Shown: piece after piece, positions 7,262-64,000 of the stretch | Position numbering within the stretch: position 1 is the stretch's first letter | Layout: the number at the start of each line of letters is the position of its first letter | NCBI GenBank assembly: GCA_900696515.1 | Contig: CAADGK010000015.1 | Span: 186,001 to 250,000 of the forward strand | DNA length: 64,000 bases | Source: an uncultured Nitrosospira sp. | GTDB lineage: Bacteria; Nitrospirota; Nitrospiria; Nitrospirales; Nitrospiraceae | Direction: 5' to 3' | Notes under the pieces: generated by a model | Told to the model about the DNA's origin: nothing | The model's database searches: none | The model's input: only the letters and a program-made list of their open reading frames with translations | Position numbers and translations under genes: made by a program

Positions 7262-7278
7262 CTCCATCCCTTCAACTG

Positions 7279-8700: not shown

Positions 8701-8716
8701 ATAACCGATCGCGTTG

Positions 8717-10854: not shown

Positions 10855-10859
10855 CGTAT

Positions 10860-15486: not shown

Positions 15487-15489
15487 GGC

Positions 15490-16767: not shown

Positions 16768-16830
16768 AGGTTTAACTCCGTTCCTCTGCCCTGCTTGAAG
16801 CCGTGATGAAGGTGGGGAAGAGGGTGTGAT

Positions 16831-17361
16831 TCATGGTTGCTTCTGTATGCTGCATGGGTCCGTTGAGAAAGGATTCCCTGAATTGATGTCGGATATCGGT
16901 CTGCTCGTTGGACGAACTTTGTCTGATTTGGTAAACGCATCGGCCTGATGTTCAGGAACGTCGGGCGAGAGCGGATGGTCGGTTCGCACCCTTGCGGCCG
17001 GCGTTGTGGCCTTGTGAAGACGCGTGATGGTGTCGACGAGATGATCGAATGAGAACGGCTTGGCCAGATAGGCATTCGCGCCGGCGTTCTTGCTCGAGGC
17101 CTCGATTTCCTCGGTGCCTTTTGCCGTCATGACCAGGATGATCGACTGGACCTGATGCGATCGAAGCGTGCGGCAGATGTCGAGTCCGTCATCAGGCCCA
17201 AGAAAGATATCCAGGATGATGACGTCATAGGTGGCGGCCTTGGTCAGGGCCAAGGTCTGCGACTTTCCTGAGGAGAGGTCTACGCGATATTCTTCCGCTT
17301 CAAGCCCCCGCTTCATGAAGCTGGCAATCCGCTCATCATCTTCCACGATCAAAATGCGCAC
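16831..17361 (-). CDS. Receiver-only response regulator, output domain missing
   Basis: 176 residues. Residues 1-120 are a receiver domain: acidic pair VEDDER near residues 6-10, phospho-acceptor in VIILDIFLGPDDG (about residue 51), Thr in VMTAKG and Lys in YLAKPF. The N-terminus VEDDERIASFMKRGLEAE nearly repeats that of the adjacent regulator at 17507-18202, so the gene probably arose by local duplication. The remaining 55 residues are low-complexity, rich in Pro, Thr, Ser and Asp, with no winged-helix domain. It may act as a phosphate sink or a protein-interaction regulator. It is separated from its paralogue by 145 bases. Confidence 0.75.
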   Translation of the reverse strand: MRILIVEDDERIASFMKRGLEAEEYRVDLSSGKSQTLALTKAATYDVIILDIFLGPDDGLDICRTLRSHQVQSIILVMTAKGTEEIEASSKNAGANAYLAKPFSFDHLVDTITRLHKATTPAARVRTDHPLSPDVPEHQADAFTKSDKVRPTSRPISDINSGNPFSTDPCSIQKQP

Positions 17362-17506
17362 AGCCGTTCCCTGGGTGAGTACCGTGACACCTCATTGTGT
17401 CAGGCGGTTACCGTACCGGAACGAGATGAGAGGCGGCTGAGAGCGGGATGAGAAATTGATAAGAAGTGGGATCCATGCCCTGAGGGGAGGGATCTCCGTG
17501 GGGAAG

Positions 17507-18202
17507 TCAGGGGAGGTGGCTGTCGGAGATTTTGTATCCGAAATCTCGTACGGTCTGGATCAGTTTGTTGGGAGACTCAACATCCACTTTTTTCCGAAGG
17601 TAGCCGATGTAGACATCGACGGTATTGGTCAGGGTGTCATGATGATAACCCCAGACATGCTCGAGAATGGAGGTGCGGCTGAGCGCTTTATTGGGGTGCG
17701 ACATCAGGAAGGCTAACAGGTCGAATTCCTTCCGAGTCAAGGAGATGACTCTGTCTCCCCGGCGCACTTCCCGTGAATGTTGGTTGAGTGTCAGATCGGC
17801 TAAGCACAAGACGCGGGCAGTTTCCTCGTTGTACGACGGCCTTCGTCTGAGCAACGCCTTGATCCGCGCGAGTAGCTCCTCGAAGGCAAATGGTTTTGTG
17901 AGGTAGTCGTCCGCTCCGTGATCGAACCCGCTCAGTTTGTCCTCCAAGGCATCTTTGGCCGTCAGGATCAGAATCGGAGTCTCGATCTGTTCGCGGCGCA
18001 GGGCTCGACAGATTTCGTGGCCGGTGGTGTCGGGTAGCAGCAAGTCGAGGATAATCAGGTCGTAAGGAGTGAGCCCTTTGTGCATTCCTTCTTGACCGTC
18101 TTGAGCGATGTCCACCAAGTAGCCTTCCGCTTCCAGCCCGCGCTTGATGAACGTGGAGATCCGCTCGTCGTCTTCCACTACAAGGATGTGCATGGCTGCC
18201 AT
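17507..18202 (-). CDS. OmpR/PhoB-family response regulator
   Basis: 231 residues. Receiver domain at about 4-120 (VEDDER, phospho-acceptor in LIILDLLLPDTTG, ILTAKDA, YLTKPFAFEELLAR), then a winged-helix DNA-binding domain at about 130-225 (LTRKEFDLLAFLMSHPNKALSR, LEHVWGY, TNTVDVYIGYLRKKV, IQTVRDFGYKI). It starts three bases after the stop of the sensor kinase, with AAAGGG eight bases upstream, so the two form a cognate pair. The likely targets are promoters of this porin/glycan cluster; no operator can be assigned by eye. Confidence 0.9.
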   Translation of the reverse strand: MAAMHILVVEDDERISTFIKRGLEAEGYLVDIAQDGQEGMHKGLTPYDLIILDLLLPDTTGHEICRALRREQIETPILILTAKDALEDKLSGFDHGADDYLTKPFAFEELLARIKALLRRRPSYNEETARVLCLADLTLNQHSREVRRGDRVISLTRKEFDLLAFLMSHPNKALSRTSILEHVWGYHHDTLTNTVDVYIGYLRKKVDVESPNKLIQTVRDFGYKISDSHLP

Positions 18203-18205
18203 GGG

Positions 18206-20479
18206 CTAAACCCTTTCCGAGGCGTGTGACGCATGATCAGGCTTGTTCGAAAATTGCGAGGAGGGAGACGGATGAAGGGGGAGCCGAACGGTCACCGTCG
18301 TACCCTGGTGAAGAGTGCTGGTGACCGAGATGACTCCGTGGTGCGCTTCGGCAATCCACTTGGCGATCGGCAGACCAAGTCCGGCTCCTCCCACTGCCGA
18401 CGGACGGCCTCGCCACACTCGATAGGCCCGCTTGACGACATGCGGAAGATCTGCCTCCGGGATCCCAAGCCCGTTGTCGGTCACCATGACCTGCGCTTCA
18501 TGCTCCGTGGTGTTCAGGCGAATGACGATCCAGCCGTCTTTCCGTCCGTATTTGACGGCATTGTCCGTGAGGATCATGAAGAGTTGCGTGAGGCGTTCCG
18601 GATCCCCCTGAACCGTCACATCGTCCGATACCCCCTCCAGCGTCACGGTTATGCCCCGTGATTGCGCAAGAATGGTTGTTTCTCGGCGTATCTCATCAAG
18701 CAGCGGCATCAACGAGGTCGGTTTGAGGTCCATCTGCAACATGCCCGATTCCGACCGGGCCAAAAACAGAATATCGCCGACCAGTTTGTTCATTTGACTC
18801 GACAGTTGAACGATCCGTTCCAACGTGGACCGGTATTCGGAAATCGGTTTCTCCTTCCCTCTGAGGGTCACCTCAGCCTCGCCCCTGATGACGGTCAAGG
18901 GGGTCCTGAGTTCATGGCTGATGTCGGCAAAAAATTGCGACCGCAATTGATCAAGCGCTTTCAGCTTCTGATGGGCGTCTTGAATGGTCTCCACCGCCTG
19001 TTTGCGTTTCGTGACATCCTGTTTGATGCTGATGAAGTGACTGACCTCGCCTTTCCGGTCACGGACGGGAGTGATCGTTTCCTCTTCCGTGTAGAGACTG
19101 CCGTCCTTCTTGCGATTGGTGCTTTCGCCATGCCAGACCTTGCCGCGCATGATCGTCATCCACTGGTTCTGATAGAAAGGCTGGGCCTGCTGTTCAGCGG
19201 TCAGGCTGCGGACGTTCCGGCCGACCACGTCTTCAGCCGTATAGCCGGTCAATGACGTGAAGGAGGGATTGACCCACGTAATCCGACCGATTCGGTCCAT
19301 AATCATCACGGCATTTGCGGCGGACTCGAGTGCCGTGCCTTGCAGTCGTATTTGCTCTTCCTCCCGCTCCTGCTCCGTCCTGTCCTTAGCGATACAGGCG
19401 ATCCCCTCAATCAGACCATCCTCTCCCCGCATGACGGCCGCCGACCAGAACAGGGGGAAGATCCGCCCGTCCTTCGAGAGACAGGTGATCGCCATTTGAT
19501 GAACCGAGCCTTGTCGAAGCATGTTCTCATAGATCTCTCCATCCAGCGGGCTGTTGTGGGGAGGGAACAGCATGGTTCCGTCTTGGCCCAGCAGCTCCTG
19601 TTCCTCATACCCGAGCAGATTGAGCGCCGCATGGTTGACGCTTCGTATGGTGCCGTCGGGATTAAACACAATCAAGAGGTCGGTCATGGAGCGAATGACG
19701 TTATCGACATAGTTCTTCGACACGGTCGTATGCAGGAGTTGTTCGATCATGCGGTTGAAGCATTGAGCCAGTTCGCCTAACTCATCGGCGCTGGACACGG
19801 GCACGGTGGCGTGGAGGTCGCCTTCGGCCACTTTCTTTGTGGCTTCGGTGAGGGGAGCGATGACCTGCAAGGATCGCTTGAGCAGGATGATAAAGAGGCC
19901 GCTTCCGAGGAGGAGCGTGACCATACTGGTTGCCACGGTTTGGCTCACCAATGTACTGAGTCGTTGTTCGAGCGCATCCCGATCCAAAAAGATCCTGACC
20001 GATCCAACGGATGAAGGGGCGAGGAGGTTGTTCCGTTGTCCCTGGTTCTGAAGATCGACGACGCGTCGTCCAAACTCGGAGACACGGTAGCCCTTCCGGA
20101 GAATCACATCTTGCTGCCAGACGTTCCCCAGGTCCGGCAAGGCGAGGTCTTCCGTGGTGAGTTGAATTCCGGAAAACTCGAGCCACACGTCCGTCGAAGG
20201 GCGATAAGCAAGAATCGCGACGACGTCCTCCCCTTCACCAAGGGAGTGGAGCAGCGTGGTCAGTCCCTCGATGTCCTGTTCCCTGTAGTACGTGCGCGCT
20301 TGTGAGGCTATGGTCTTGGCGAGCGTCTCCCCGCGTATCTTGAATTCTTGATACATGGCATTGCGGCTGGAGGTATAGGCGAAAAAGGTCAAGCCGAAGA
20401 CCGCGCCGAAGAAGACGGCCAAAAACAAGGCCATCAGTTTGTGAGTCAGGGAACGTGTCAACCACTGTCTGATCAGCAT
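18206..20479 (-). CDS. Membrane sensor histidine kinase with HAMP and two PAS domains
   Basis: 757 residues. Membrane helix at about 12-36, a periplasmic sensory segment of about 140 residues, a second helix at about 180-200, HAMP at about 205-255, PAS at about 255-375 and 380-500, then the dimerisation/phosphoacceptor helix with ISHELRTPLT (His near residue 530) and a HATPase with N box, DNGLGIPE and GGAGLGLPIAKW. All kinase motifs are intact. It directly precedes its response regulator and follows the periplasmic binding protein by about ten bases, so the periplasmic segment may read a signal relayed by that protein or the porin substrate. Confidence 0.88.
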   Translation of the reverse strand: MLIRQWLTRSLTHKLMALFLAVFFGAVFGLTFFAYTSSRNAMYQEFKIRGETLAKTIASQARTYYREQDIEGLTTLLHSLGEGEDVVAILAYRPSTDVWLEFSGIQLTTEDLALPDLGNVWQQDVILRKGYRVSEFGRRVVDLQNQGQRNNLLAPSSVGSVRIFLDRDALEQRLSTLVSQTVATSMVTLLLGSGLFIILLKRSLQVIAPLTEATKKVAEGDLHATVPVSSADELGELAQCFNRMIEQLLHTTVSKNYVDNVIRSMTDLLIVFNPDGTIRSVNHAALNLLGYEEQELLGQDGTMLFPPHNSPLDGEIYENMLRQGSVHQMAITCLSKDGRIFPLFWSAAVMRGEDGLIEGIACIAKDRTEQEREEEQIRLQGTALESAANAVMIMDRIGRITWVNPSFTSLTGYTAEDVVGRNVRSLTAEQQAQPFYQNQWMTIMRGKVWHGESTNRKKDGSLYTEEETITPVRDRKGEVSHFISIKQDVTKRKQAVETIQDAHQKLKALDQLRSQFFADISHELRTPLTVIRGEAEVTLRGKEKPISEYRSTLERIVQLSSQMNKLVGDILFLARSESGMLQMDLKPTSLMPLLDEIRRETTILAQSRGITVTLEGVSDDVTVQGDPERLTQLFMILTDNAVKYGRKDGWIVIRLNTTEHEAQVMVTDNGLGIPEADLPHVVKRAYRVWRGRPSAVGGAGLGLPIAKWIAEAHHGVISVTSTLHQGTTVTVRLPLHPSPSSQFSNKPDHASHASERV

Positions 20480-20489
20480 GGCGGCGTCT

Positions 20490-20948
20490 CTATCGGTTCT
20501 CGATGATGAGGAGGATCTTGATCTGGCTGTCTTTCATTGTTTTGACCGTGGACAGGTTGACGTACCCGACGGCCCCCTCAATGACGCCGACGAAACGCAC
20601 CACGGCTTCGTCCGAGCGTTCGATGACGCTCTGCACGGGAACGGGGGTGCCCTGGCGATAGAACACTTGGTCAGGATTTGCATTCAATACCCGCAGATAG
20701 AACGTCTTCCTCTCCTCGGCCGAGATTTCACGGTTCACCAGCTTGATTCGGTCTCCCCCGGGCCAATGGAGGATCTCTCCCCGGTACATGCCGGCGACCG
20801 TGGTCGTACTCAATGAGGCGTTGGGATTATTCTTGTTGGCGATCACAGCGAGGGGATCGGCATGGGCAAGGGCGGTGCATAACCACAGCGCCAGCGTCAT
20901 AGCCAGCGCTGTTTGCCGGCGCGGTCCTGTACGGGATGGGCCGTTCAT
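20490..20948 (-). CDS. Short PstS-like periplasmic substrate-binding protein
   Basis: 152 residues. Signal peptide at about 1-30 (hydrophobic core, then AHA). The mature part carries the PBP-like fold fragments seen in small phosphate-binding-type proteins: VIANKNNPNASLS, TTVAGMYRGEILHWPGG and VGYVNLSTVK. It is about half the length of full PstS, and no permease or ATPase genes accompany it, so it is more likely a sensor accessory or periplasmic scavenger than part of a transporter. It lies between a porin and a sensor kinase, an arrangement that suggests anion sensing. Confidence 0.7.
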   Translation of the reverse strand: MNGPSRTGPRRQTALAMTLALWLCTALAHADPLAVIANKNNPNASLSTTTVAGMYRGEILHWPGGDRIKLVNREISAEERKTFYLRVLNANPDQVFYRQGTPVPVQSVIERSDEAVVRFVGVIEGAVGYVNLSTVKTMKDSQIKILLIIENR

Positions 20949-20958
20949 GGGATAACCG

Positions 20959-22260
20959 TCAGAAGATCCACGCGATGGATGTCAGAAATCCGTCGGATGG
21001 GAACTGATTGAACTGGCCGTTGTTGAACTGATACTCCATCTTGAACACATAATCTTCCACCGGACGGTAGTTGAATCCGACGATCATTTGCTCACCGTTC
21101 AGGCTCCCGGTCGGGCTGGCCGCCGTATTCATCTTGGTTCGGCCGTAGAGTCCCACGAGCGCGAAAGTCGGATTGTTGAAGTGGCGTCCCAGGATGGTGG
21201 AGTTCAATGCGGAAGGCCAGAACCGATAGGTGAGTTGGATGTAATATCCCCAGAGGCTTGATGGTGTCGTGGAGCCCTGAAGATCGAACCGCGCGAATTC
21301 GCTTCTGAGCTGGAAATGGTCCCATATCTTGATGTTGCGAGGCTTGAACTCGGCATCGAAGGCCATGCCGGTTATCATATCGGCGGAACCCGGCTTGTAG
21401 GCGCCACGATATCCGGAAAACCCGATTTCATACTGGTCGTAAAACTTCATGGTTCCACGTCCGACGACCGCCTTATCGCCGTTGTTGTCCGTATGTAATC
21501 CAGACCGCGCGCTTTGCAGGCCCGGATCCGGCAAATGGCCGGGCGTCGCCAGGAATTTATCCGTCAGGCCGTTGATGACCTGAACCTCGTACGTGGCCTT
21601 GATATTGTCCGAGATCGGAATCAACCCGAAGGCGCCAAAACCCAAGTCAGACCAGGTCGTAGGGGTCACGAGCCGCGCGACGGAAGGAGGGCGTATGAGA
21701 TCTCGGCGTGGATCGAAGTGATCAAGATTGAATTTGCCGAACGGGATCAGCAATACCCCCGCCCGGACGTTGAACGGCTGGGTAAGGAGCAGGTCGACAT
21801 AGGCCTGTTCGGCTTCCGCGGTTCCATGGGGAAGGCCCAGATCAATTTCGGTGTAGACGCGAATCCGGTCGTGAAACTGTCCGGAAATCAGGACTTCGAA
21901 ATTGCCGTCATGGGTTGACCGTCGGTCTTGTAAACTTTCAAATATCACGGCCCCGTAGGCTCCGACTCGAATATTCTGTGCCAGTTCATCCGACAGGCTG
22001 CTCTGTCGTTGTTCCACCACGCCGAGACGTTCTTTCAGATCGGCGAGTTCCTTGCGGTGTTGCTCTTCTATCTGGTGGAGCTGATGTTTCAGCTGCTCGA
22101 CCGTATTGTCCTTGTCGCTCCTGGACGGCATGTGGGAGGTTTGGGCCAGGAGCAGGCTCGGGATAAGCATACAGAGAAGGAGTGTGAGGACTGCCACGAC
22201 ATCCCCTACGGGTCTGTGATGATCAGGCGATGGATGAAGCCTAGGCCGGTGCTGTTTCAT
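20959..22260 (-). CDS. Outer-membrane porin with N-terminal coiled coil
   Basis: 433 residues. Signal region with a hydrophobic core at about 20-38 ending LLLAQ; a heptad-rich coiled coil at about 50-92 (VEQLKHQLHQIEEQHRKELADL); then a beta-barrel of about 330 residues with aromatic strand ends and a C-terminal Phe. The barrel resembles the phosphate-selective porin O/P family (FNVRAGVLLIPFGKFN, DLGFGAFGLIP). The coiled coil may trimerise it or hold it to peptidoglycan. It is followed after ten bases by the phosphate-type binding protein, which fits anion uptake; the substrate is inferred. Confidence 0.78.
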   Translation of the reverse strand: MKQHRPRLHPSPDHHRPVGDVVAVLTLLLCMLIPSLLLAQTSHMPSRSDKDNTVEQLKHQLHQIEEQHRKELADLKERLGVVEQRQSSLSDELAQNIRVGAYGAVIFESLQDRRSTHDGNFEVLISGQFHDRIRVYTEIDLGLPHGTAEAEQAYVDLLLTQPFNVRAGVLLIPFGKFNLDHFDPRRDLIRPPSVARLVTPTTWSDLGFGAFGLIPISDNIKATYEVQVINGLTDKFLATPGHLPDPGLQSARSGLHTDNNGDKAVVGRGTMKFYDQYEIGFSGYRGAYKPGSADMITGMAFDAEFKPRNIKIWDHFQLRSEFARFDLQGSTTPSSLWGYYIQLTYRFWPSALNSTILGRHFNNPTFALVGLYGRTKMNTAASPTGSLNGEQMIVGFNYRPVEDYVFKMEYQFNNGQFNQFPSDGFLTSIAWIF

Positions 22261-22277
22261 GGTCTCTGGTGATCCTT

Positions 22278-22883
22278 TTACCGTAAGGGTGAGATGATCC
22301 AGTTCGGCATCTCGCCTTTCCCATCTCCGTGGCGCGCATACAGCCGTTGTCTGCCGCTTGGCTGAAGCTTCCAGGTGGATAGCGGTTGTTGGTACGAGGT
22401 CTGCTCTCCCTCATATCGCGGTCGTCGCAAGTCCTTGATAATCAGATGCAACTCATCGTTGACCACAAATACGAAACCCATCGTCCGCCGATCTGGCTTC
22501 TCCACATCGGCAATAGTAAAGGACGTGACTTGTTCTGGAGGGGCCAGACTCAAGGCTTTGGACAGTGGCGACGCCAATTGCTCTGCTTGAGTCTTCGTGA
22601 ACACTTTCCGGGGTTGGGCCTTGGAAAACGGCAACAACGCACCCGCATCGTAGGTCAGCGAATCCAGGATATCGAATGCCGTTTCGGGTGATATCGTGTA
22701 GGGGTGTTGAACGGGCATGATCGAAGGGTAGCCTCCCGGGAGTTCCCGGAGAATGACCGAGAGGGTATCTGACTCATGAATGACGACGGTCGGAGAAGTC
22801 GTGCAGGCGGCCATGCTCCACAGCAACAAGCTAATGGTTGCCATGATGATGCTCCCTGGTACGGTCCTATTCTGCATGGCCAT
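22278..22883 (-). CDS. Lipoprotein of unknown function
   Basis: 201 residues from the ATG at 22883, which has AAAGGG seven bases upstream; an earlier in-frame ATG at 22910 lacks one. The N-terminus is a lipoprotein signal with SMAAC as the probable lipobox, so the mature protein is anchored in a membrane. The rest is globular with a YTISPETAFDILDSLTYDAGALLPF segment and a conserved-looking DELHLIIKDLRRPRY. I do not recognise a named family. It is the first gene of the 16-gene minus-strand run, 17 bases before the porin, so it may assemble with the porin. Confidence 0.6.
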   Translation of the reverse strand: MAMQNRTVPGSIIMATISLLLWSMAACTTSPTVVIHESDTLSVILRELPGGYPSIMPVQHPYTISPETAFDILDSLTYDAGALLPFSKAQPRKVFTKTQAEQLASPLSKALSLAPPEQVTSFTIADVEKPDRRTMGFVFVVNDELHLIIKDLRRPRYEGEQTSYQQPLSTWKLQPSGRQRLYARHGDGKGEMPNWIISPLR

Positions 22884-22976
22884 CTCATGTCCCTTTCGAG
22901 CCGACAGCAATTGCGGGGCGTTCCCTACACCGATTCCCTTTTGACGAAGCAGGGCGGGCTTTGTAAACGCCAGGAT

Positions 22977-22994
22977 ATTCCTTTTAATTGGAAT
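22977..22994. promoter_or_regulatory. Inverted repeat upstream of the lipoprotein/porin operon
   Basis: ATTCC, an 8-base AT-rich centre and GGAAT form a dyad 94 bases upstream of the first gene of the minus-strand run. It could be an operator or part of a promoter region. No convincing -35/-10 pair was found by eye. Confidence 0.25.
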
Positions 22995-23244
22995 GAACTA
23001 CAATAAACAAGCCCAAGTAAAAGACCTTGGAGCTATGACGGATCATCGATGCCTGTCACTGGAATGAAAATATTAGGGATACAATGTAAATTGCGGTCCG
23101 AGAAAGCACAGGCTGGGGCTCTTCATGTTGTGTGCCGGAGATTCAGTTCGTTGAACGATCAGGCCTGTGGTATGGGGCTTCTCCGTGATGAATCTGTCAA
23201 CCGATATGGTTTGTGTACGTTTCTGCCGGGACCGCGTTGGTCGC

Positions 23245-23375
23245 TTGTCGTTTGTGAAGTGTGAAATGGTTATGGGTGGAAGCCTGAAGTGGTGAGGTTG
23301 GCAGTGGGAGGTATACAGCTCATGCTTCAACCCTCGGATCTCCAACCTCCAACTCCCCACCGTCTGGCTTCATAC
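23245..23375. repeat. Heptad-periodic imperfect inverted repeat
   Basis: The left arm (to about 23312) is purine/G-rich with units close to GGTGAGG spaced about 7 bp; the right arm (about 23325-23375) is its C/T-rich complement (units like CCTCCAA). Reverse-complementing the right arm aligns it over more than 30 bases with the left. It would form a long imperfect hairpin. The 7-bp period recalls short tandemly repeated sequences of cyanobacteria, but here in inverted pairs. Confidence 0.65.
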
Positions 23376-23502
23376 CCTGCCGGTTTGAAGGCAACGATGG
23401 TAAGAGCCGTTTCACGATTGACCGGAGGCTGCTAGTGTGGAACACTTATGAGTCGTATTTCTAATTAGTGACGGAATCGATCTCGATCGCTGGATTTCTC
23501 GC

Positions 23503-26154
23503 ATGGACGTCGTCGCCACACATAGCAACGCGGATTTCGATGGCCTCGCCTCCATGGTTGCCGTGCGCAAACTCTTTCCCGAGGCTCGGCTGATTCTGCC
23601 GGCCGGAGCGCAGGAGGCCGTCCGGAAGTTTCTTGCCGTTCATGATCTCAATATCACGAAACTCAAAGACGTCGATCTTTCACAGGTCACCAGGCTGATC
23701 CTGGTCGATACTCAAGACCCGGGCCGGATCGGAACGCTTACAGCCTGCCTCGGGAATCCCGCGGTCGAGATCGTGGTCTTCGATCACCATCTCGAATCGG
23801 ATTCCGTCTGTGCCGGACGTTCGAAACAGTCCGTGGTGGATTCGGTCGGAGCCACGACGACGCTGCTCGTCGAGCAGCTCCAGCGGCGGCATGTCCCCGT
23901 GACGCCGTTTGAGGCGACCGTGATGGCCCTCGGTCTTTATGAGGAAACCGGATCGTTTACCTTCGCCTCGACGACCAGCCGGGATTTTGAAGCCGGGGCA
24001 TTCCTCGTCCAAGCCGGCGCGGATCTCACTATGGTCTCGGACACTCTCTACACGCCGCTTGATCCGGATGCCGTTGCGCTGCTGAATGATTTCTTGGAGC
24101 ACAGTGACGTGCTGTACCTGGAAGGTCGCAAAGTCCTCGTGTCCACAAGCACGATCGATCGCTGCCGCGGCGAAGCGGCCGGCGTGGTGCATCGCCTCGC
24201 CGAATTGCAGGGGGTTGATGCCGTCGTCGTGGCCGTCATGATGGCGGATCGTGTGGAAGTGATCGGAAGAAGTCGTCGACCTGAGATAGACGTCGGTTGG
24301 ATTGCTCGAGAATTCAAAGGAGGAGGCCATGCCGTCGCGGCATCCGCCACAGTCAAAGGGCAGACGCTCTCAGAAGTCAAGGAGAAGGTCGTTCAGCTGC
24401 TGACCACACACTATCGCCCGACCCTGCTGGCCCAGGATGTCATGACCCGCCCGGTGAAGGCGATCGAGACGGGCACGACCGTTGCTGAAGCCGGACAACG
24501 GATGACGGCCTACGGTCTGAATGTCTTTCCCATCTTGGATGAGGAGGACCGTTACACGGGGATCATCAGCCGGGAGTCGATTCAGAAGGCGTTGTTTCAT
24601 CGGCTAGGTAAGATGGCCGTGCGTGACATCATGCAGACCGATGCGTATACCGCGCGGCCGGAGACATCCTTTCATGAAATCGAAACTGCCATGATCGAGC
24701 GTAACCAGCGATGTGTTCCGATCGTCAAAGAGGCGAAAGTCGTCGGTGTCATTACCCGAACCGACTTACTGCGAACGCTTCATGACGATGTGCTGAAGAC
24801 CGCCAGAACACGCACCATTCAACCAAGCGACGCTGGGACTGAGGCCGGAAGGCCACATCGCAATGTGAAGGGATTGTTACGGAGCCGCTTGCCGCATCGC
24901 CTGGGGACATTGCTGGAAGAGGCCGGACACATAGCGGACCGCTGCGAGGTCTCACTGTTTGTCGTAGGCGGCTGTGTCAGGGATCTGCTGCTGGGCATTC
25001 ACAATCTCGACTTGGACCTCGTCGTCGAAGGCGACGGGATCGCGTTCGCACGAAAGCTCGGTGACGTCTATGAGGCTCGGGTCAAGGTGCATGAGCGATT
25101 CGGCACCGCGATGGTGCTGCTGCCGGACGGCCTCAAGCTCGATGTAGCCACCGCACGAACAGAGTACTATGAGTATCCCACAGCCTTGCCGACGGTGGAA
25201 CAGAGTTCCATCAAGAAAGATCTCTATCGTCGTGATTTCACGATCAATGCCTTGGCGATTCGACTGAACGGGAAGGGGTTCGGCGATGTACAGGACTTCT
25301 ACGGTGGACAACGAGACCTGAATGAGAAAGTGATCCGTGTCTTACACGGCCTCAGTTTTGTCGAAGACCCGACGCGCGTGTTCCGAGCGATCCGCTTTGA
25401 AACGCGGTTCGGTTTTCGTTTGGGGAAGGACACAACCGCATTGATTGCTGGCGCGGTCAAGATGAACCTCTTTCACCGACTGTCCGGCCATCGTCTGCTG
25501 GAAGAATTGAAGTTGCTCTTCTCTGAGCGGGAGCCCAGGCAGTCCATCAAGCGCTTAGCGGATATGGGATTGCTGCGATTCATTCATCCCAAGCTGAGTT
25601 GGTCCGATCGCTTGGAGAAGCTCTTGAATGCAATCGATGAAGCCGTCGATTGGTACCGGCTGCTGTATCTGGACAGAAAGATGGACGTCTGGTTGGTCTA
25701 TATGATGGGCCTGATCGAGCTGGTGCCGGAGCATCACGTGAAGGAGATTCTTAAACGATTTCCTTTTTCTGAACAGGAATCCACGCGACTGAAAATGGCG
25801 CGTGTGGGCTGCCATCACGCCATGCGCCGATTGACATCGAAACGGCCACTTAAGCCGGCGGAGGTGTATCACCTCCTATCGGGATTGTCCGACGAGACGC
25901 TTCTGATCCTTATGGCCAAGAGCAAAGGGGACACCGTCAGGCGCCACATCTCAGCCTTCGTCACAACCTATCAGCATGTGAAGCCGACGCTGTCAGGCGC
26001 CGATCTCAAGGAAATGGGATTGAAGCCAGGCCCGCAGTTTAAGGAGATCCTTGCCCGATTACTTGATGCACGCCTGAATGGAGATCTGCGGACTGATAGT
26101 GACGAACGGCAGTTCGTTCGGCAGATGCTTCCTGCCTCCACGCGAACGGCTTGA
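23503..26154 (+). CDS. DHH-CBS-CCA tRNA nucleotidyltransferase fusion
   Basis: 883 residues in three modules. Residues 1-300: a DHH phosphoesterase with NADFDG, VDTQD, VVFDHH and the DHHA1 motif GGGHAVAASA. Residues about 305-430: a pair of CBS domains (DVMTRPVKAIETGTTVAEA, DIMQTDAYTARP). Residues about 450-880: a class II poly(A)/CCA polymerase head with VVGGCVRDLLLG and the catalytic LDLDLVVEGD, then RRDFTINALAI and the RNA-binding tail. It adds CCA, or only A, to tRNA ends; the DHH part may remove nucleotides, and the CBS pair may sense adenylates. The same domain order is known in Aquifex-type A-adding enzymes. The start is the first in-frame ATG; no strong ribosome site precedes it. Confidence 0.88.
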   Translation: MDVVATHSNADFDGLASMVAVRKLFPEARLILPAGAQEAVRKFLAVHDLNITKLKDVDLSQVTRLILVDTQDPGRIGTLTACLGNPAVEIVVFDHHLESDSVCAGRSKQSVVDSVGATTTLLVEQLQRRHVPVTPFEATVMALGLYEETGSFTFASTTSRDFEAGAFLVQAGADLTMVSDTLYTPLDPDAVALLNDFLEHSDVLYLEGRKVLVSTSTIDRCRGEAAGVVHRLAELQGVDAVVVAVMMADRVEVIGRSRRPEIDVGWIAREFKGGGHAVAASATVKGQTLSEVKEKVVQLLTTHYRPTLLAQDVMTRPVKAIETGTTVAEAGQRMTAYGLNVFPILDEEDRYTGIISRESIQKALFHRLGKMAVRDIMQTDAYTARPETSFHEIETAMIERNQRCVPIVKEAKVVGVITRTDLLRTLHDDVLKTARTRTIQPSDAGTEAGRPHRNVKGLLRSRLPHRLGTLLEEAGHIADRCEVSLFVVGGCVRDLLLGIHNLDLDLVVEGDGIAFARKLGDVYEARVKVHERFGTAMVLLPDGLKLDVATARTEYYEYPTALPTVEQSSIKKDLYRRDFTINALAIRLNGKGFGDVQDFYGGQRDLNEKVIRVLHGLSFVEDPTRVFRAIRFETRFGFRLGKDTTALIAGAVKMNLFHRLSGHRLLEELKLLFSEREPRQSIKRLADMGLLRFIHPKLSWSDRLEKLLNAIDEAVDWYRLLYLDRKMDVWLVYMMGLIELVPEHHVKEILKRFPFSEQESTRLKMARVGCHHAMRRLTSKRPLKPAEVYHLLSGLSDETLLILMAKSKGDTVRRHISAFVTTYQHVKPTLSGADLKEMGLKPGPQFKEILARLLDARLNGDLRTDSDERQFVRQMLPASTRTA

Positions 26155-26348
26155 CCTATTGCAATACCAATTGAAACGGCTCGCGCGAGGCTGGCACCAA
26201 GCTGGAAGCGCCGTGACGTAACCCGTCGAACTACCCGCTGGTATCGAACCGGATCCACAGCCGTCGTCGCCACCTCCGTTTCCCGCCCGGATGCTCAAAG
26301 GCAGTCGCTGCAACCAGAACAGCAATAATTTCATTTTTTAGAGCCAAA

Positions 26349-26378
26349 CCTCAGCCCGCGTGATATTCAAGGCTGAGG
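26349..26378. promoter_or_regulatory. Perfect 8-bp stem-loop between CCA gene and nuoA
   Basis: CCTCAGCC at 26349-26356 pairs with GGCTGAGG at 26371-26378 across a 14-base loop. No run of T follows on the plus strand, so it is not a classic terminator for the CCA gene; a run of six T lies just before it, which would fit the minus strand. It may be an operator or leader hairpin of the nuo operon, whose first ATG is 40 bases further on. Confidence 0.35.
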
Positions 26379-26417
26379 AAAAGCACGTGTGTCAAAATTA
26401 CATACATACTTATTGCC

Positions 26418-26882
26418 ATGGTAGATGATTCTATTTGGCAGATTTGCGTATACGGGGTCTGTGTCGGCGTGGTGATCGCTGTTATGCTGGGACTCCCGCC
26501 CTTGCTCGGCGAGCGGTACTGGCGGAAACCGGAACGTCGATCTGAGAGTGCAACGGCGATTCCCTATGAGTGCGGGATTCGGCCGACCGGGAGCGCTCAG
26601 GTGCGTCCACCGGTTCAATATTATTTGATCGCCATGTTCTTCGTCATTTTTGACGTGGAGGCCGCGTATCTCTACGCCTGGGCGGTCGCGGTGCCTGAGA
26701 CCGGCTGGCTGGGCTTTATCGAAGTGACGATCTTTGTTTCCATTCTGCTGGCCTCCCTTGCGTATCTCTGGCTGACCGGAGCGCTTGATTGGCATGCCTA
26801 CTCCCGGCGTCCGAAAGTCAGTCGCCGGCAGGAACCATCTGTGAACCAGTCAACGGAGCTCTACAATGACCGAGTGGCGTAA
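26418..26882 (+). CDS. nuoA: NADH-quinone oxidoreductase subunit A
   Basis: 154 residues with three membrane helices, at about 10-30, 70-92 and 98-120. The family hallmarks are the loop [21 protein letters not shown] and [16 protein letters not shown]. It belongs to the membrane arm of complex I, near the quinone-site junction. It is the first gene of a 13-gene operon and overlaps nuoB by 17 bases. The C-terminal 25 residues are polar and longer than in the E. coli subunit. No clear ribosome site precedes the ATG. Confidence 0.93.
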
Positions 26883-51597: not shown

Positions 51598-53760
51598 TCA
51601 GTTCGCGAGCCGAGTTCGCAATCGATCTCTGGTTCGGGATGTTTCATTGGAAAGACGGTCCTGCAGCAGATACTGGAGTTGATGGGCGGGAAGTGGTTTG
51701 CCGAAGAGATAGCCTTGATAGGTATCGCAGCCTTGCAGACGGAGAAAGGCGAGTTGATCGAGGGTTTCCACTCCCTCGGCGACGAGATGCAGCTGGAGTG
51801 CGCGTCCCATTCCGACAATCGCCCGCATGATCGGAGAATCCTCCTTCCCAAGCTTGAGGTCTTTGATGAAAGCCCGGTCGATCTTGAGCGTGTCGATCGG
51901 AAAACGCTGAAGATAGGCCAGGGAGGAGTAGCCTGTTCCAAAATCGTCGATGGCGAGTCGAAAGCCGGATTCCTTGAGTTCACGCAGGATGGTCGTGGTC
52001 GATTCCGCGTCCGTCATCAAGACACTTTCGGTCAGCTCAAGCTCGATGTCCTGCGGGTGTCCTCCTTCTGCGAAAACCAGTTCCTTCAGATGGGCGGCAA
52101 GATGCGCCTGTCTGAAATACAGACCGGAGACGTTGATTGAGACCGCAATGGGGGCCAGCCCGGACTTATGCCAGATGCGTTGTTGTCGAGCCACGTTTCT
52201 GATGACCCAGTCGGTCATCGGCATGATCAGCGCTTCTTCTTCAGCAACCTGGATGAATTCCGCCGGAGCAATCAAGCCGCGAGCCGGGTGTTGCCAGCGA
52301 ATCAGGGCTTCAAATCCGATGACCTGCTCCGAGAGGATGTCGACTTTCGGTTGATAGTGCAGGAGGAATTGGTTGCCGGCGATGGCGCTTCGTAGGTCTT
52401 GTTCGAGCCCGATCCGTGCGGCGAGCGATGCGTTCATGGCATCGGAGTAGAACTGATAGCGATTGGGACCTGTGCGCGTCGCCGACTGAGCTGCCGTGCC
52501 GGCATTGCGCAGGACCTGCTCCGCCTCGGTTCCATCGGTGCCTGGAATCGCGATCCCGATATAAGCGGAGAGCGTCACACTGGTGGATTCAATTTGAAAC
52601 GGATTGTGCAGCGCATCCAGACAATTCCGGGCGACCCGGGCGGAATCTTCAGGAGCCGCGAGATCGGTCAGGAACAGTGCAAACTGGCCATCGCTGAGGC
52701 GAGCCAGCGTCGGCGAGGCGGCGCCGGAGGATCGAGCAACCGTCAGGTCCGAGGAGAGAGACTGCCGCAGTCGTTCGGCCGCCTCTCTGATGAGATGCTC
52801 ACCGCATCGTGGGCCATGCATCTCACAGATGCGCTGATACCGGTCCAGATGTATCACCAATAGGGCATCAGGGACGCCTGCGCCGGACGCCAGCACTTGA
52901 CCGACGCGATGGAGAAAGAGGGTTCGGTTGGGGAGATGTGTCACGCTGTCGTAGTTTGCCAGGAAGTAGATCTTTGTTTCGGCAGCACGTTCATCCGTGA
53001 CGTCTTGCACGGTTCCGACCAGACGACGCGCGTGGGTGTGGTTGTCCGTCTGGGTTTCACCACGAAGACGGACGATGCGTTCCGCACCGTCACGGGGAAT
53101 GAGCCGGTGGTCCATGTCCACCCCCGTTCCCTCGGCTCTCGCCCGCTGTAAGGCTTTGATCACCGGTTCCCGGTCTCCCTCGTGGACACAGGCCAGATAG
53201 GAGAATTGTGCGGGGTCAATCGAGCCCGGCAGGATGCCAAGCGTTCGACAGGCGGCTTCCGAGAGGTCCATCCGATCGCCGGACGGGTCCCATTCCCATC
53301 CGCCGAGTCGGGCGATCCGCTGGGCCTGCGCTAATTGAGCTTCACGGGCGCGAAGGGCGTTCATGGTTCGGCCGGCGCGCAACATGTAGCGTACCCGCTG
53401 GCTGAGAATGAGTCCGTGGCACGGCTTGACGATAAAGTCGGTCGCACCTTTTTCATAGGCCTGCGCGATTGAGTCGACATCGTCCAAGCCCGTCATGATG
53501 AGAATCGGCACGAAGCGCCCGTGCGGCAGCTGTCGGATGTGTTCGCAGACGGCAAATCCACCCATGCCGGGCATTTGCAAATCCAGGATAATGATGTCGG
53601 GCATCGTGGACGACGCGAATTCGACCGCGGCCTCTCCGCTCAGAGCCTCTTCGACCAACAGCTCGTCCTGTTCCAGGCTCATGCGGGAGAGCATGCGAAA
53701 CGTGGCATCATCATCGACGATCAGCGCCAGCGGGAGCGGTCGTCGGGTCGAGGCAGTCAT
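51598..53760 (-). CDS. Response regulator with PAS, degenerate GGDEF and EAL domains
   Basis: 720 residues: receiver at about 10-130 (phospho-acceptor in [13 protein letters not shown]), PAS/PAC at about 145-260, GGDEF at about 270-440 and EAL at about 455-705. In the GGDEF part the signature loop reads LSDGQF, so cyclase activity is unlikely. The EAL part keeps [26 protein letters not shown], the Lys in [10 protein letters not shown] and AEGVET, so c-di-GMP phosphodiesterase activity is expected. It overlaps the hybrid kinase by four bases, so the pair forms one phosphorelay controlling c-di-GMP. Confidence 0.9.
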
Positions 53761-56700
53761 GTTGGTCTCCTCTCAAGCTCCGCCTGAAAGATCCGGCAGG
53801 CGTGTTCGAATGCCGCAGTCAGCGGGGTCAACAATGGTTCGGCGTCTTCGAGGTGTCCCTGCCGACTGAGTTCTTCGAATTGACGGCAGAGTTTCGACAG
53901 CGAGACCGCTCCCAGTGTCGCGCTTCTCGATCGCAGGCTGTGGGCCGCATGCTGTACGACCAGGGAGTTTCCGTTGGCCATGCCGTGGCGAAGCGTTGTC
54001 ACCAGGTTGTGGGAGTCGGTCACATACAGCGACAGGATCGTGGCCAATGCATCCGGTTGTCCAGGTCGTTGGAGGTGCGTGATTGATTTCCAGGCGTTCT
54101 GATCAACAACGAGCGAGGCATCGGAATCCTGGATAGCGGGTGCGGCGGTTTGTATGGACGTCAGGAGTTCCGCGTGGCCCGACGTTCCGGATTCCTGGTC
54201 CTCGGTCAGGGGGGTGAGGGAACACCAAAAGGTCAAGGCCGCGTGCAGTTGCGCCAGGGTGAACGGTTTTGAGATGTAATCGCTCATCCCCGCGGCCAGG
54301 CACCGTTCGCGATCCTCCTGCGTCGCATGCGCGGTAAGGGCGATGATGGGGATCGGCGGTCGTGACGCTTGCCGCTCCCATTCACGGATCTGCCTGGTGG
54401 CCTCGAGCCCGTCCAGTTCCGGCATTTGACAGTCCATCAAAATCACATCGGAGGAGGACTGTTTGGCATAGTCGACGACCTCTCGACCGGTGTGCGCGAC
54501 GGTCACGCCGTATCCCATGCTGTGGAGCATCAGCAGCGCGATTTCCCGGTTGACGCCGTTGTCTTCCCCGAGGAGAATCCGCCGCGAGAGGGCCTGCTTG
54601 TCCGTCGCGGATCCCGTTTCTTTTCCGATGGAAGGTTGATCGGTGAGTACGGTGCGCAGCGCATGGTACAGGGCCTGGAAGCGGATCGGCTTCGTGACAT
54701 CCCGCATGTGAGCCGATGGCATATCGCTTGCGGCATCGGCTTTTCTCATGAGCGAGACGAGTCGAATAATCTTGACGGTCCGCAGGGTCGGTTCGGAAAA
54801 CAAGGTCCGGACGATCTCCGTATCCGTCATATGATCGAAGGTTTCGTCGATCACCGCGACGACCGGTCCACGTTCTGTCGCGAGACCCGTCATGACGCAT
54901 TCAAGAAATTCACCTTCGGTATCAGCGAGGTGTGGAGCAATACCCCAAGCAGAGAGGTACTGTGCGAGCAGATGACGGGCCGTGGCTGAACTGACTGCCG
55001 CACACAGGCAAAGATTCGCGAAAGCGGGCTCCGTGTGAACGGGAGGGGGAGGGTCGGATTGAAGCGAAAACGGAACAATCACCGAAAAGGTACTGCCCGT
55101 TCCGATCGCACTTTCAAGACTGATGACACCGCCCATGCACTCGGTGAGCTGTTTGCAGAGGGGCAAGCCCAGCCCCGCGCGACCCGTCACCCCTATTGAG
55201 GAGTTGTCTGTGCGGGAACAGGATCGGAAAACGTCGGCCTGTCTCTCGATGCTGATACCGGATCCGGTGTCCGCCACGTCCAGCTTGATTCTGGGAATGT
55301 CCTTCCGGCCTGCTCCCTCGGATTCTTGAGTGACGGAGACCGTCACTTCTCCGGTTTGAGTGAAGGTGATGGCATTGCTGAGAAGGTTGGTCAGAATGTG
55401 TCCGATTCGAAGGGGGTCGCCCATGACGGCGGTTGGGACCGACGGATCGTAAAAGGTGTGGATCTGGAGCCCTTTTCGCTGGGCAGGTTCAGCCAACCGT
55501 TCCACGGTGGTCTCAACAAGATCGCGCAAATCAATGGGAACGGGGTGCACTACCAATGTGCCGCTTTCGACTTCCGAGCACGTGAGGTGGTTGCTGATCA
55601 GTGTGAGTAGGGTCGCTGCCGAGTTGTGAATCGTGTCGACATACCGCCGTTGGATGTCGGTAAGGGGGGTGTGGGCCAGGACTTCGGTCATCCCGATCAC
55701 GCCGCTCAGCGGTGTCCTGATATCGTGACTCACAGCCGTCAGGAATTTGACCTTGGCCTGTATCGTGTCCTGGGCCGCAGGGTGAGAGTTGACTGGTCCT
55801 TCCGCAGGTCCCCGTCGTCCGTCGGCATCAAGGACGAGGGTCAGGATGTTTGCGATCGCGCGGGCGAACCGGTGCTCATCCGTCGTCCATTCACGTGAGG
55901 ATCCGACATACTCGATCGAGAGGACACCCGCCAGCTTGTCCTGTGTCTGAAGCGGGATATCGAGCCGTGCGCCGCCCTGCATCGGAGGCTGAAGTTCGGA
56001 AAGCAAGTCCCGAAAGGCCGGTTCCTGGAGTGTCTCTGTTGCCGCAAGAATCGATTTCTGATCGAGAGCCGCCATGTAGTTCGGATAGTCCTCGCGAAGC
56101 AATCTCTGACCGCCGGCATGGTGATCCGTTGTCGTCTCATACCGGTCCAGGCAACCGAGCGATTGAGTCCGTTCCTCGTACACCCATATGCTTACGAAGT
56201 GGACCGCCAAGGTCTGGGCAACCAGTTCCGTCACCTGTTTGGCCAGGGCCGGCAGCGGATCGGCACACACCCGCTGATCCTGAGCGAGTGACAGGAGCGC
56301 ATTCAGTTGCAGGTGAAGACGCTCATCGTGTGCGTTTGAGGATGGACTCGGATGTTGGAGAAGCGTTGTCCGTTCTTCTGACGCCTGTGCGGCATCAATC
56401 CTGACGTGCACATGCGTTTGCGTGGCACGGCTGTTCAGAAGGGTCATGGCGATCAGATCGGCCGCTCGCCGTGCATAAACCAGACTGTCGGCGGGCGGTC
56501 TCCTTTTCTGTCGATATCCGAGCACGAGTACCCCGCCGATCGTATCGGCGACGATGATGGGAACAAGAGCGAAGAGAGGGAGGTCTGGTCGTCGCATGGC
56601 CGACAGAAAGGATGGGAGTGAGGCCGATGTCACAAGGGTATGGTCCGGGTGTGCTTGCAGCATCACGCGATGCTCATCCGTGACCTGACAGGGAGAGGCG

Positions 56701-57929
56701 GTGAGTTCCTCTGATGGTCCACCAAGGAATTGCATGGACAGGACGGAAGGTTCCGAATGAGCGGGATCAAGGAACAGGAGACCCGTCGCATCACAACTGA
56801 TTGCAGCGGAGATACGAGAGAGCACGACATCGTCCAGAGCCGCCGGTTCACGGATGGACAGGAGGGCCTGTCCGATTGATAAGAGGCTCTCCTCCATGCG
56901 GAACTGCCGGCTCAAGCTTTCGGTCATCCCGTTAAAAGAGTCCGCGAGTTCCTCAAATTCATCGTGAGTGTGAACGGTCACCGGCGTCGAGAAGTTTCCG
57001 GAAGCCAGACGAACGATTCCTTCTTGTAATCGGAGCAGCGGATGGAGGCTCCGTCGAATCAGTACGACACTCAACAGCACCGCGGTGCAGGATGTGAGGG
57101 CCGTGACGAGCAGGAGTATGCGACGGAACTGTGTGACTGGGAATAGGACCGACTCCCGTGTTTGACTCACGACAATTACCCAGGGGTCCATCAGAAAGAG
57201 CTGTTGCAGGGGCACTGACCAGGCCCCAGCGACATGGTCTTGTCCTCCGATCGTCCACAGAGGACCTGTTTTCACCGGAGCGCCGTCTTCCTGCCCTCGA
57301 AAATCAGGGAGCGCGAATGCTGGTTCAAACGTCGAGTACATCGGCCGGCCGGCCCCGTCTTCAACGACCAGATCCGTATCGGAGGAGAGTGTCTCTCTTG
57401 CCTGGTCACCCCAGAGCGCGGTTCCGTCCAGCTGTGCAGCCAGCAGGCCGGCCTCCACTTGATGCGGGTTGATCAGCCTGGTCAGTGTAAGTTGCGACTG
57501 ATGTTCCGAAACATGGTGAATCTCCAGTAGGGAGTTGCCTGTTTGCAGGTGCGCGATTTGGGGTGGGGTGAGTTGTCGTTGGCCAGGTTCGAGCATGAGG
57601 ACCTGAACCTCCCGGAACAGCCGATGAGGTTCGGTGCCAGGCGCGAGGGGGATGATGGTTTCGACGACGGGACCATCTTGTGGCAGCTCAACGGCCATCC
57701 TGTCCAGAGCAGCCCTCATGGTCAATAGATGGTTGTAGAGCATCATCCCTCGCGACCTGCTTTCCTGTCGGAGGTGGGAAGAGGTTTGAAGCAGAAGTTG
57801 CTCGCCGGTTTGGTAGTACAAAACCCAGGAGAGAACGGATATCGGCGCCAACGCGCCGAATACAAACAGCCCAAACGTACGGCGGCCGAGGGGGCTCCGA
57901 AACAGTGATTGGAAGAACGAGATCGGCAT
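53757..57929 (-). CDS. Hybrid sensor histidine kinase with GAF, receiver and HPt domains
   Basis: 1390 residues. Membrane helix at about 18-40, a periplasmic sensory part to about 270, second helix, HAMP at about 290-345, two GAF-like segments (about 360-500 and 540-700), phosphoacceptor helix [15 protein letters not shown], HATPase ([25 protein letters not shown]), a degenerate receiver, an intact receiver ([32 protein letters not shown]) and a C-terminal HPt ([15 protein letters not shown]). A full internal phosphorelay is possible. The first receiver lacks the acidic pair. The partner is the coupled EAL regulator. Confidence 0.88.
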
Positions 57930-63211: not shown

Positions 63212-63709
63212 GGCGCACCCTCCGGACGAGCCACGCTGCAGCGAGATGGCTGGTGTATGAACCTGTCGACATTCTATCGATGTCGGTTGGCCCAGTCCAT
63301 GACGAGACGTTCGCGGGAGGATCGTGCGGGAGGAATACGAGAGAGAGCCGGATCAGTGACTGTCTTGGAGCAGAGTGAATATGATGAGATGGATAAATTA
63401 TAAAGATGAAGAATCAATTGCTTATGGAGGAAATGTCATGTTGAACAGTGGATATATAGTTAGGGAAGCCGAGCTGAATGAAGTGGCGATCATGATGGAT
63501 CTTGGAGTGGTGTGCTTGAGAGGTTGAAGTCTTGGATGTGACTGGGTTTTCACGAGAAATGCTCCCACCTGAACGGAACTGAGTTCAACCCGTTGTGTGC
63601 GATGGGTAAGAGCGGCTCCGTGCTCTTGCTTGTAGACCACCTTCAGCGGTACCGGAATTCAACCGATACGTGATGTGGGTTTGTATTCTGAATCGACCAG
63701 GGGACGCCC
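63212..63709. other. Divergent region upstream of DUF3617 and LEPR-XLL genes
   Basis: 498 bases without a confident gene; promoters for the DUF3617 gene (minus) and the adhesin gene (plus) should be here. The central part, about 63360-63470, is AT-rich. It holds the small open frame listed separately at 63438-63527. Confidence 0.4.
63438..63527 (+). CDS. Possible 29-residue small protein
   Basis: A short open frame with GGAGG at about seven bases before the ATG, coding 29 residues with the middle YIVREAELNEV and a C-terminal CLRG. No family is recognised. The ribosome site is better than that of several real genes nearby, which is the only positive evidence. It may be a leader peptide of the gene at 63710 or chance. 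Confidence 0.25.
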   Translation: MLNSGYIVREAELNEVAIMMDLGVVCLRG

Positions 63710-64000
63710 ATGTTCGGATTCGGCAGGAAAAAGAAACCATCTGCATCGGACGAGCAGAAGGATCGACAGATTCCGGCACCATCGGCCGGTATCAAAGGGT
63801 CGCTCATTTCGCTCGAGCAGCGGCTCATGTTCGATGCGGCGGCTTCCGCGACGGCTTCCGAGGTCGCGTCCGAGCAAGTTGCGCAAGAGCAGGCGGAGGC
63901 GGCTGTCTCGTCCGAGCACCATGCTGATGGTCCGTCCGCGGAGCAAGCTGAATCGGAGGGCCTGCTTGACGCGATCGCGACCTATAATCCGGGGGAATCG
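63710..64000 (+). CDS. N-terminus of probable LEPR-XLL giant surface protein (runs off window)
   Basis: 97 residues are visible, from an ATG with AGGGGA five bases upstream; there is no stop before the window end. A basic start (MFGFGRKKKP) is followed at about residues 30-45 by SLISLEQRLMFDAAA, the LEPR-XLL motif (LEPRxLFDA) that opens very large, repetitive, type-I-secreted adhesins and Ca-binding proteins. Then comes a Glu/Ala-rich segment (ASEVASEQVAQEQAEA) typical of the linker. The absence of a normal signal peptide fits export by a type I system. Partial gene. Confidence 0.7.
   Translation, partial: MFGFGRKKKPSASDEQKDRQIPAPSAGIKGSLISLEQRLMFDAAASATASEVASEQVAQEQAEAAVSSEHHADGPSAEQAESEGLLDAIATYNPGES

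Follow-up and report, generated by a model that had tools for sequence, protein, structure and literature searches.

The window, the whole 64,000-nucleotide stretch of DNA that was analyzed, spans C15:186001-250000 of a 4.59-Mb genome in 144 contigs. A giant, repeat-rich protein begins at the window end (Table 1). The initial annotation had placed the start of a LEPR-XLL protein here and expected the gene to continue past the window edge. The frame is real, and it does continue. The contig contains 1,387 more bases, and the frame runs through 559 codons without a stop before the contig ends (C15:251386) within repeats. An early stop without repeats therefore did not occur.

Table 1. Features at the start of the giant gene, numbered from the first nucleotide of the window
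Feature	Position	Strand	Basis
Ribosome-binding-like AGGGGA	63699..63704	+	Sequence; 5 bases ahead of ATG
Giant gene, 5' end, 97 codons	63710..64000	+	Open frame from ATG at 63710, no stop to 64000
Pre-motif region, residues 1-30, basic, without signal peptide	63710..63799	+	Hydropathy, charge
LExR-leader-type motif SLISLEQRLMFDAA, residues 31-44, proposed export leader	63800..63841	+	Motif expression, alignment, profile score

The giant protein and its N-terminal motif

The core motif of the window protein is LEQRLMFDAA, not the literal LEPR-x-LL. It lies near the start of a giant repeat protein. The protein contains DUF4347 (PF14252; 193.9 bits against a gathering cut-off of 24.6; 2e-57 in Pfam). 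This domain is followed by repeats with a Pfam match to cadherin (1.7e-16) and a period of 100 residues. These cadherin repeats were found beyond the window end, as predicted for a giant repeat-rich protein. The maximal 15-residue hydropathy in the first 60 residues is 0.96. Orthologues from other Nitrospirota genomes (L071-L074) have the same N-terminus and flanking genes, and L071 encodes 2,226 amino acids.

The LEPR-XLL model is NCBIfam NF012209 ("LEPR-8K"), with a curated cut-off of 17 bits. The window N-terminus scored 13.8 bits, its paralogue on contig C52 12.6, and L067 15.7, all below the cut-off. The Escherichia coli plasmid homologue described below had no NF012209 match. The model accepts giants found beside the class-2 cassettes described below (27.2 to 30.4 bits, 4 of 4 tested). 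The window protein resembles LEPR-XLL proteins in that its LExR motif is N-terminal, is preceded by a basic stretch, and heads a giant repeat protein. It differs in having FD[AG]A where LEPR-XLL has LLAAD. Judged by these scores and residues, the window motif is a cousin of LEPR-XLL and not a member. The motif picked out by the initial annotation stood, and the family name did not.

The motif expressions varied slightly in allowed residues between counts, and each count holds for its own expression. In loci enriched for motif genes by design, the motif-type expression matched in the first 160 residues of 136 of 1,648 ORFs (at least 300 amino acids, fetched loci) and in 0 of 1,648 reversed sequences. 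Therefore, the motif is not a chance match. The L, E, R, D, and A at motif positions 0, 1, 3, 7, and 9 did not vary in any of the 64 distinct motifs that were aligned, with L, E, and R demanded by the search expression. The net charge ahead of the motif had a median of +6 and was positive in 94 of 99 distinct N-termini of motif-type giants. Hydropathy gave no classical signal peptide or strong hydrophobic core in 102 N-termini of such giants. Their maximal 15-residue value had a median of 1.18, and 10 reached 1.6.

The 3' end of the window gene is probably on contig C23. C23 begins within the same repeat in which C15 ends (92% identity, 90 residues), and its frame (C23:3-1082) stops at base 1082. 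No exact suffix-prefix overlap of 10 to 399 bases was found between the C15 end and C23, C120, C88, or other contig ends. In L071-L073, one gene is flanked by matches to the last 6 kb of the window and to the first bases of C23. C23 can also be aligned at its C-terminus with L071, L073, and L074. Because of this synteny and C-terminal alignment, we assign C23 across the contig gap as the probable 3' end. The C23 fragment, whose link to C15 we infer, contains no RTX match. The expected repeats were present as cadherin repeats; on this fragment, probably the 3' end, RTX was absent. By eye, the C-termini of the giants are of two sorts. A hydrophobic one, "W.LRxGxLLA...DPLPV," is found in the C88 fragment, L076, L080, L090, L108, and others. 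A milder one, "GLAGxxLQG," is found in giants that include C23, L071, L073, and L074.

The suggested connection to a glycan locus was not supported. The genes just upstream are for DUF3617, rhodanese, and aldose epimerase proteins, and they are syntenic in the orthologous loci. The sole glycosyltransferase among ten window proteins scanned is 48 kb away from the giant gene. A hybrid histidine kinase (HAMP, GAF, HisKA, receiver, Hpt; 1,390 amino acids) adjoins a receiver-PAS-GGDEF-EAL protein at window positions 51598-57929. This pair is likely a c-di-GMP switch; the giant gene begins about 6 kb downstream of it.

The class-1 cassette and its distribution

The genome encodes three DUF4347 proteins: the window gene product, a paralogue on C52 that has the leader motif, and a protein on contig C39 that lacks it. 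The C39 protein (L012:11960-12874) continues into RTX repeats and is cut at the contig end. C52 encodes, on one strand, TolC, HlyD, a longer second HlyD, an M50-HlyD fusion, and then directly the giant paralogue. Pfam matches in this cassette include the HlyD adaptor (PF13437) and the TolC-family channel (PF02321). Its M50-HlyD is the sole such fusion found in the genome. No cassette was found beside the window gene, whose downstream side is visible only if C23 is its continuation. The C52 cassette is the only one found in the genome. The nearby TolC and HlyD genes expected by the initial annotation are present beside the paralogue; none was found beside the window gene. The C52 cassette has no C39-type HlyB. 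The genome (G000) has one SecA_DEAD match.

We sampled 245 genomes of the phylum, and 41 had an M50-HlyD match at 1e-20. Class 1 was present in 35 genomes (E below 1e-200, 45 to 100% identity). Class 2 was present in 14 genomes at 15 places (23 to 29% identity). Eight genomes had both classes. One more match was a fragment (G123:C32, 51%). Of the 245 genomes, 37 had DUF4347, among them 34 of the 35 with class 1. Twenty class-1 neighbourhoods, chosen on long contigs, were fetched. All 20 encode TolC-HlyD-HlyD2-M50HlyD in order, and in 18 the next gene downstream, in the same orientation, encodes a DUF4347 giant. Of the remaining two, one has a motif-bearing giant without DUF4347, and the other has its giant about 7 kb upstream of the cassette. 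None of the 20 has a C39-HlyB.

A scan of genome contigs retrieved at least 577 class-1 relatives, and the best 80 were taken as loci. They span Nitrospirota, alpha-, beta-, and gammaproteobacteria, SAR11, a Campylobacteraceae, and a Desulfonema MAG. These best 80 of at least 577 encode M50-HlyD (80), the second HlyD (76), HlyD (67), TolC (59), and DUF4347 (33). HlyB was found in none of the best 80, where the top HMM match was 82 bits against 521 for a true HlyB. The SecA2 HMM also had 0 matches in them. Across 58 proteobacterial loci, only the five families just listed recurred (52, 47, 37, 33, and 30 loci), and the next cluster had 7. No conserved neighbouring ATPase for class 1 was present among these recurrent families. 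The linked HlyB of the initial annotation is thus missing from the C52 cassette, from the 20 Nitrospirota neighbourhoods, and from the best 80 loci.

We also considered DUF4347, in place of the motif, as the part that travels with the cassette. This was rejected because class-1 motif giants without DUF4347 exist (L058/L124, L179) and because the spans fetched around some motif-free DUF4347 proteins (L012, L081, L086, L087) contain no cassette.

An E. coli plasmid (L236; NZ_CP081687.1:38000-69240) contains a complete class-1 cassette and giant between IS elements (locus positions 6830-26581). The cassette has all five genes, and the giant has 4,459 residues with LESRQLFDGAA and DUF4347. The M50-HlyD gene of this plasmid was found in 24 of 5,426 complete E. 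coli genomes, 22 at 80% or more of its length, and 21 of its 25 places are on plasmids. DUF4347 relatives were found on Citrobacter, Hafnia, and Kosakonia plasmids as well. Class-1 cassettes also stand beside giants in streamlined SAR11/Pelagibacteraceae genomes of about 1.2 Mb (L188, L176, L178, and L190). The L188 giant has 2,340 amino acids and the leader LEPRMMLDGAA. L200, L201, and L203 have the leader LEQRIMLDGA.

Classical type I secretion (HlyB-HlyD-TolC) exports giant RTX adhesins of the LapA/BapA/SiiE type. The class-1 system resembles it in having a TolC-family duct, HlyD-type adaptors, and a giant repeat substrate. It differs in having no ABC ATPase, a likely C-terminus without RTX, and a candidate signal that is N-terminal and not C-terminal. 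The genome itself has a canonical C39-HlyB on C120 (L019:3-2141), 2.4 kb from a 3,842-residue RTX giant (L019:4549-16077). The N-terminal part of this giant that was read has no leader-type motif; by eye, a lipase-like GFSLGGH is present near the N-terminus. This HlyB and its RTX giant are a separate type I system of the same genome.

The window protein might be exported by such a canonical system, for example that on C120, through a C-terminal signal, with the M50-HlyD cassette incidental. The C120 pair speaks for this. So does one Azospirillum genome, where a DUF4347 protein without the motif precedes a C39-HlyB (L244:6391-15002), and so does the Vibrio LEPR-XLL giant with C-terminal RTX reported in the available text of PMC10868602. 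We regard ordinary type I export as improbable. The cassettes contain no HlyB, the likely C-terminus on C23 has no RTX, the RTX-linked or HlyB-linked proteins found here are motif-free, and the motif tracks the class of the M50 cassette (see below). The motif-free L244 protein is the contrast expected to the leader-bearing type. LapA and BapA are treated in PMC12153261. According to the available text of that paper, BapP of Pseudoalteromonas uses an ABC system, and it was ruled out as an example of the same route.

Two cassette classes and two motif types

Kamneva, Poudel, and Ward (2015; PMC4452313) described a locus of secondary SecA_DEAD, M50-HlyD, GAF-HlyD, and HlyD genes, Nitrospirae included. 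As described in the available text of that paper, this locus is our class 2. Its broader biological role was called "completely unknown" there. The terms LEPR, giant, cadherin, and PqqD appear nowhere in the main text of PMC4452313. Class 1 shares with this locus, as the available text describes it, the M50-HlyD fusion family, the HlyD partners, and the lack of an ABC transporter. It differs in having no secondary SecA, in having TolC and an FD-type giant, and in a second HlyD without a Pfam GAF domain. No Pfam GAF was found in the second HlyD L004:4990-6357 or in the E. coli plasmid homologue. The class-2 L102 has GAF (PF01590) at 8e-12.

The full-length profiles of the two classes match over 665 columns with a probability of 100. 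HMMs split them cleanly into 144 and 24 ORFs (duplicates kept), and the smallest class-1 gap is 368 bits. At least two SecA_DEAD matches were found in each of the 14 class-2 genomes. Exactly one was found in 24 of 27 class-1-only genomes, and the other three (G121, G214, and G137) have two. The SecA2 HMM matched in 15 of 15 class-2 Nitrospirota loci, 6 of them being seeds of the model. On the SecA counts and the HMM separation, we rejected the reading that merely equates class 1 with the SecA locus of 2015. SecA2 had no match in the 20-kb Amphritea locus, and an annotated Thalassospira class-2 cassette has no SecA between M50 and HlyD; therefore, not every class-2 cassette comes with SecA. In 5 of 8 class-2 plasmid regions (L222, L225, L226, L227, and L228), HlyD is preceded in the annotation by a small DUF3467 protein, which may be an export chaperone.

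The SecA counts bear on a two-step route in which housekeeping Sec moves the giant across the inner membrane and the M50-HlyD cassette performs the outer-membrane step and the leader processing. A dedicated SecA_DEAD protein in 15 of 15 class-2 loci, with two or more in all 14 genomes, would suit such a route, and the single SecA of the 24 class-1-only genomes could serve class 1. The 102 N-termini with no classical signal peptide argue against it, and we consider it rather unlikely.

The giants beside the two classes differ in their motifs. An FD-type motif heads an ORF of at least 250 residues in 35 of the 80 class-1 loci (best 80 of at least 577), and the AD type was found in 0 of these 80. 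Neither motif was found elsewhere in the 1,519 ORFs of the best 80 loci. The other 45 class-1 loci have no motif in the fetched span; in many of them, a repeat-rich ORF runs off upstream of the cassette. Genomes of 25 of these 45 loci were searched, and DUF4347 was found genome-wide in 22. The FD motif was present in 26 of 30 DUF4347 loci from those genomes. L214 has the AD type, and L218-L220 have none.

The AD type (LEPRxLLAAD) was found in 8 of 15 class-2 Nitrospirota loci, the eighth after one locus was extended, and the FD type was found in 0 of 15. The other 7 gave no motif, the extended L237 among them. Eight class-2 plasmid regions were fetched, and six giant N-termini were read. Five of the six have the [LMI]EPRxLL[SN]AD type. 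The Alisedimentitalea giant has no motif at its annotated start. Three of the class-2 plasmid giants have the NCBI name "LEPR-XLL protein." Two giants beside class-1-type plasmid cassettes (Azospirillum TSA2s and Phyllobacterium) have no motif at their annotated starts and so speak against the pairing.

The pairing is kept in three genomes that hold both systems (G055, G043, and G097). G117, G171, and G224 have the FD type at class 1 and no motif read at class 2. In Amphritea, an M50 protein is followed by a reading frame and, 0.2 kb on, by a DUF4347 giant with an LLLSAD motif. This M50 protein scored 367 bits with class 2 against 222 with class 1. The locus is a natural swap, with an AD-type DUF4347 giant beside a class-2-like cassette. 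Judged from these counts, the motif type follows the cassette class across phyla, FD with class 1 and AD with class 2. Fisher values, which take no account of kinship, were set aside as proof.

Structure models and the proposed export route

The model of the class-1 M50-HlyD protein had a mean pLDDT of 73.4 and a pTM of 0.46. Its C-terminal half matched MacA (Z 14.7, 237 aligned, rmsd 8.1). Its membrane part matched RseP (7w6x; Z 10.4, 160 aligned, rmsd 3.7), MjS2P (3b4r; Z 10.1), and SpoIVFB (Z 10.1). HExxH is present in 113 of 113 class-1 and 24 of 24 class-2 distinct full-length M50-HlyD proteins. The strict second M50 motif, NPxxxFDGY, is present in 78 of 113 and 23 of 24. The M50 part of the C52-type fusion is thus predicted to have a site-2 protease fold and carries HExxH.

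The first 95 residues were modelled as three strands and then three helices. This N-terminal domain is possibly PqqD-like in class 1. PqqD (PF05402) was matched in 10 of 11 class-2 proteins (best 3.6e-5) and weakly in 2 of 11 class-1 proteins (best E 0.016). The best match of the M50-HlyD N-terminus in a PDB profile search was PqqD (3g2b), weak at E 0.18. The class-1 and class-2 N-terminal domains had no match when compared alone. The fold matches listed for the full M50-HlyD model did not include PqqD, in a search that barely probed the N-terminus. A firm PqqD assignment in class 1 was not reached, the matches being too weak.

The DUF4347 part of the window protein was modelled well (block pLDDT 89 to 98, residues 101 to 266). 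It matched Tce1 (9qpe_G; Z 13.3, 146 aligned, rmsd 3.0) and SAVED-CHAT (8tl0_A; Z 9.4, 130 aligned, rmsd 2.8). Matches to Craspase CHAT, C11 protease, caspases, and legumain had Z of 7 to 8, which may reflect a common arrangement only. H155 lies in an SHG motif and C199 in a YGC motif. The C199 column is kept in 80 of 81 sequences and the H155 column in 70 of 81; the His at the catalytic position is absent in part of the family. DUF4347 is therefore a predicted caspase-like (clan CD) cysteine-protease domain. In the model it resembles clan CD peptidases (CHAT, caspase, clostripain, and the T6SS effector Tce1) in fold and His/Cys motifs. It differs from them in being fused between the export motif and the cadherin repeats, and its peptidase role is a prediction.

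The reading that we favor, and hold to be fairly probable, is that the window protein is a giant surface or secreted protein. It would be exported by a route that is free of ABC transporters and ends in TolC, with the motif as leader and M50-HlyD as the inner-membrane receptor or processor. The LExR..FDAA motif would act as the export leader, and the M50-HlyD N-terminal domain, possibly PqqD-like, may read it. The M50 core may then pass the leader across the membrane or clip it there. The duct would consist of the HlyD parts and TolC. The window protein would be exported in trans by the one class-1 cassette, that on C52. DUF4347 may process the giant outside the cell after export. Candidate energy sources are housekeeping SecA and the proton-motive force. 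Gene linkage does not prove transport by the cassette.

Site-2 proteases usually cleave membrane proteins. This would also fit a reading in which the motif holds the giant in the membrane or anchors it at the surface and M50-HlyD, in place of a transporter, is a protease for release or quality control. The hydrophobic C-terminal stretch of one group of giants could serve as such an anchor. The cassette supplies a full set of periplasmic adaptors together with TolC, and no other recurrent inner-membrane pump is found nearby, which makes retention very unlikely. The favored reading is that of export.

In the open-access literature, without subscription papers and preprints, we found no published export route for LEPR-XLL-type giants. 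The available text of the LEPR-XLL papers PMC10868602 and PMC9611531 makes no link to the M50-HlyD cassette. Neither does the available text of PMC8262886, a paper with DUF4347.

More tentatively, and with somewhat less confidence than would favor it outright, we propose a distinct pathway. The PqqD-like domains of site-2-protease-HlyD fusions would read LExR leaders and replace the ABC transporter. It would exist in two sister versions. One would usually be SecA-assisted, with LEPRxLLAAD cargo. The other would be SecA-free, with LExR..FDAA cargo and a built-in caspase-like processing domain. Carriers of the pathway would range from Nitrospirota and SAR11 to E. coli plasmids.

Giants of the LEPR-XLL type rank with the largest of all bacterial proteins. 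An N-terminal tag that travels with an ABC-free export kit in many bacteria suggests a little-known secretion route. Its carriers include nitrifiers, SAR11, and some E. coli and Citrobacter plasmids. The pairing of leader and exporter assigns a likely cargo to the locus that the 2015 paper left without a known role. It also provides an export signal that can be tested and a way to move giant adhesins without an ABC transporter.
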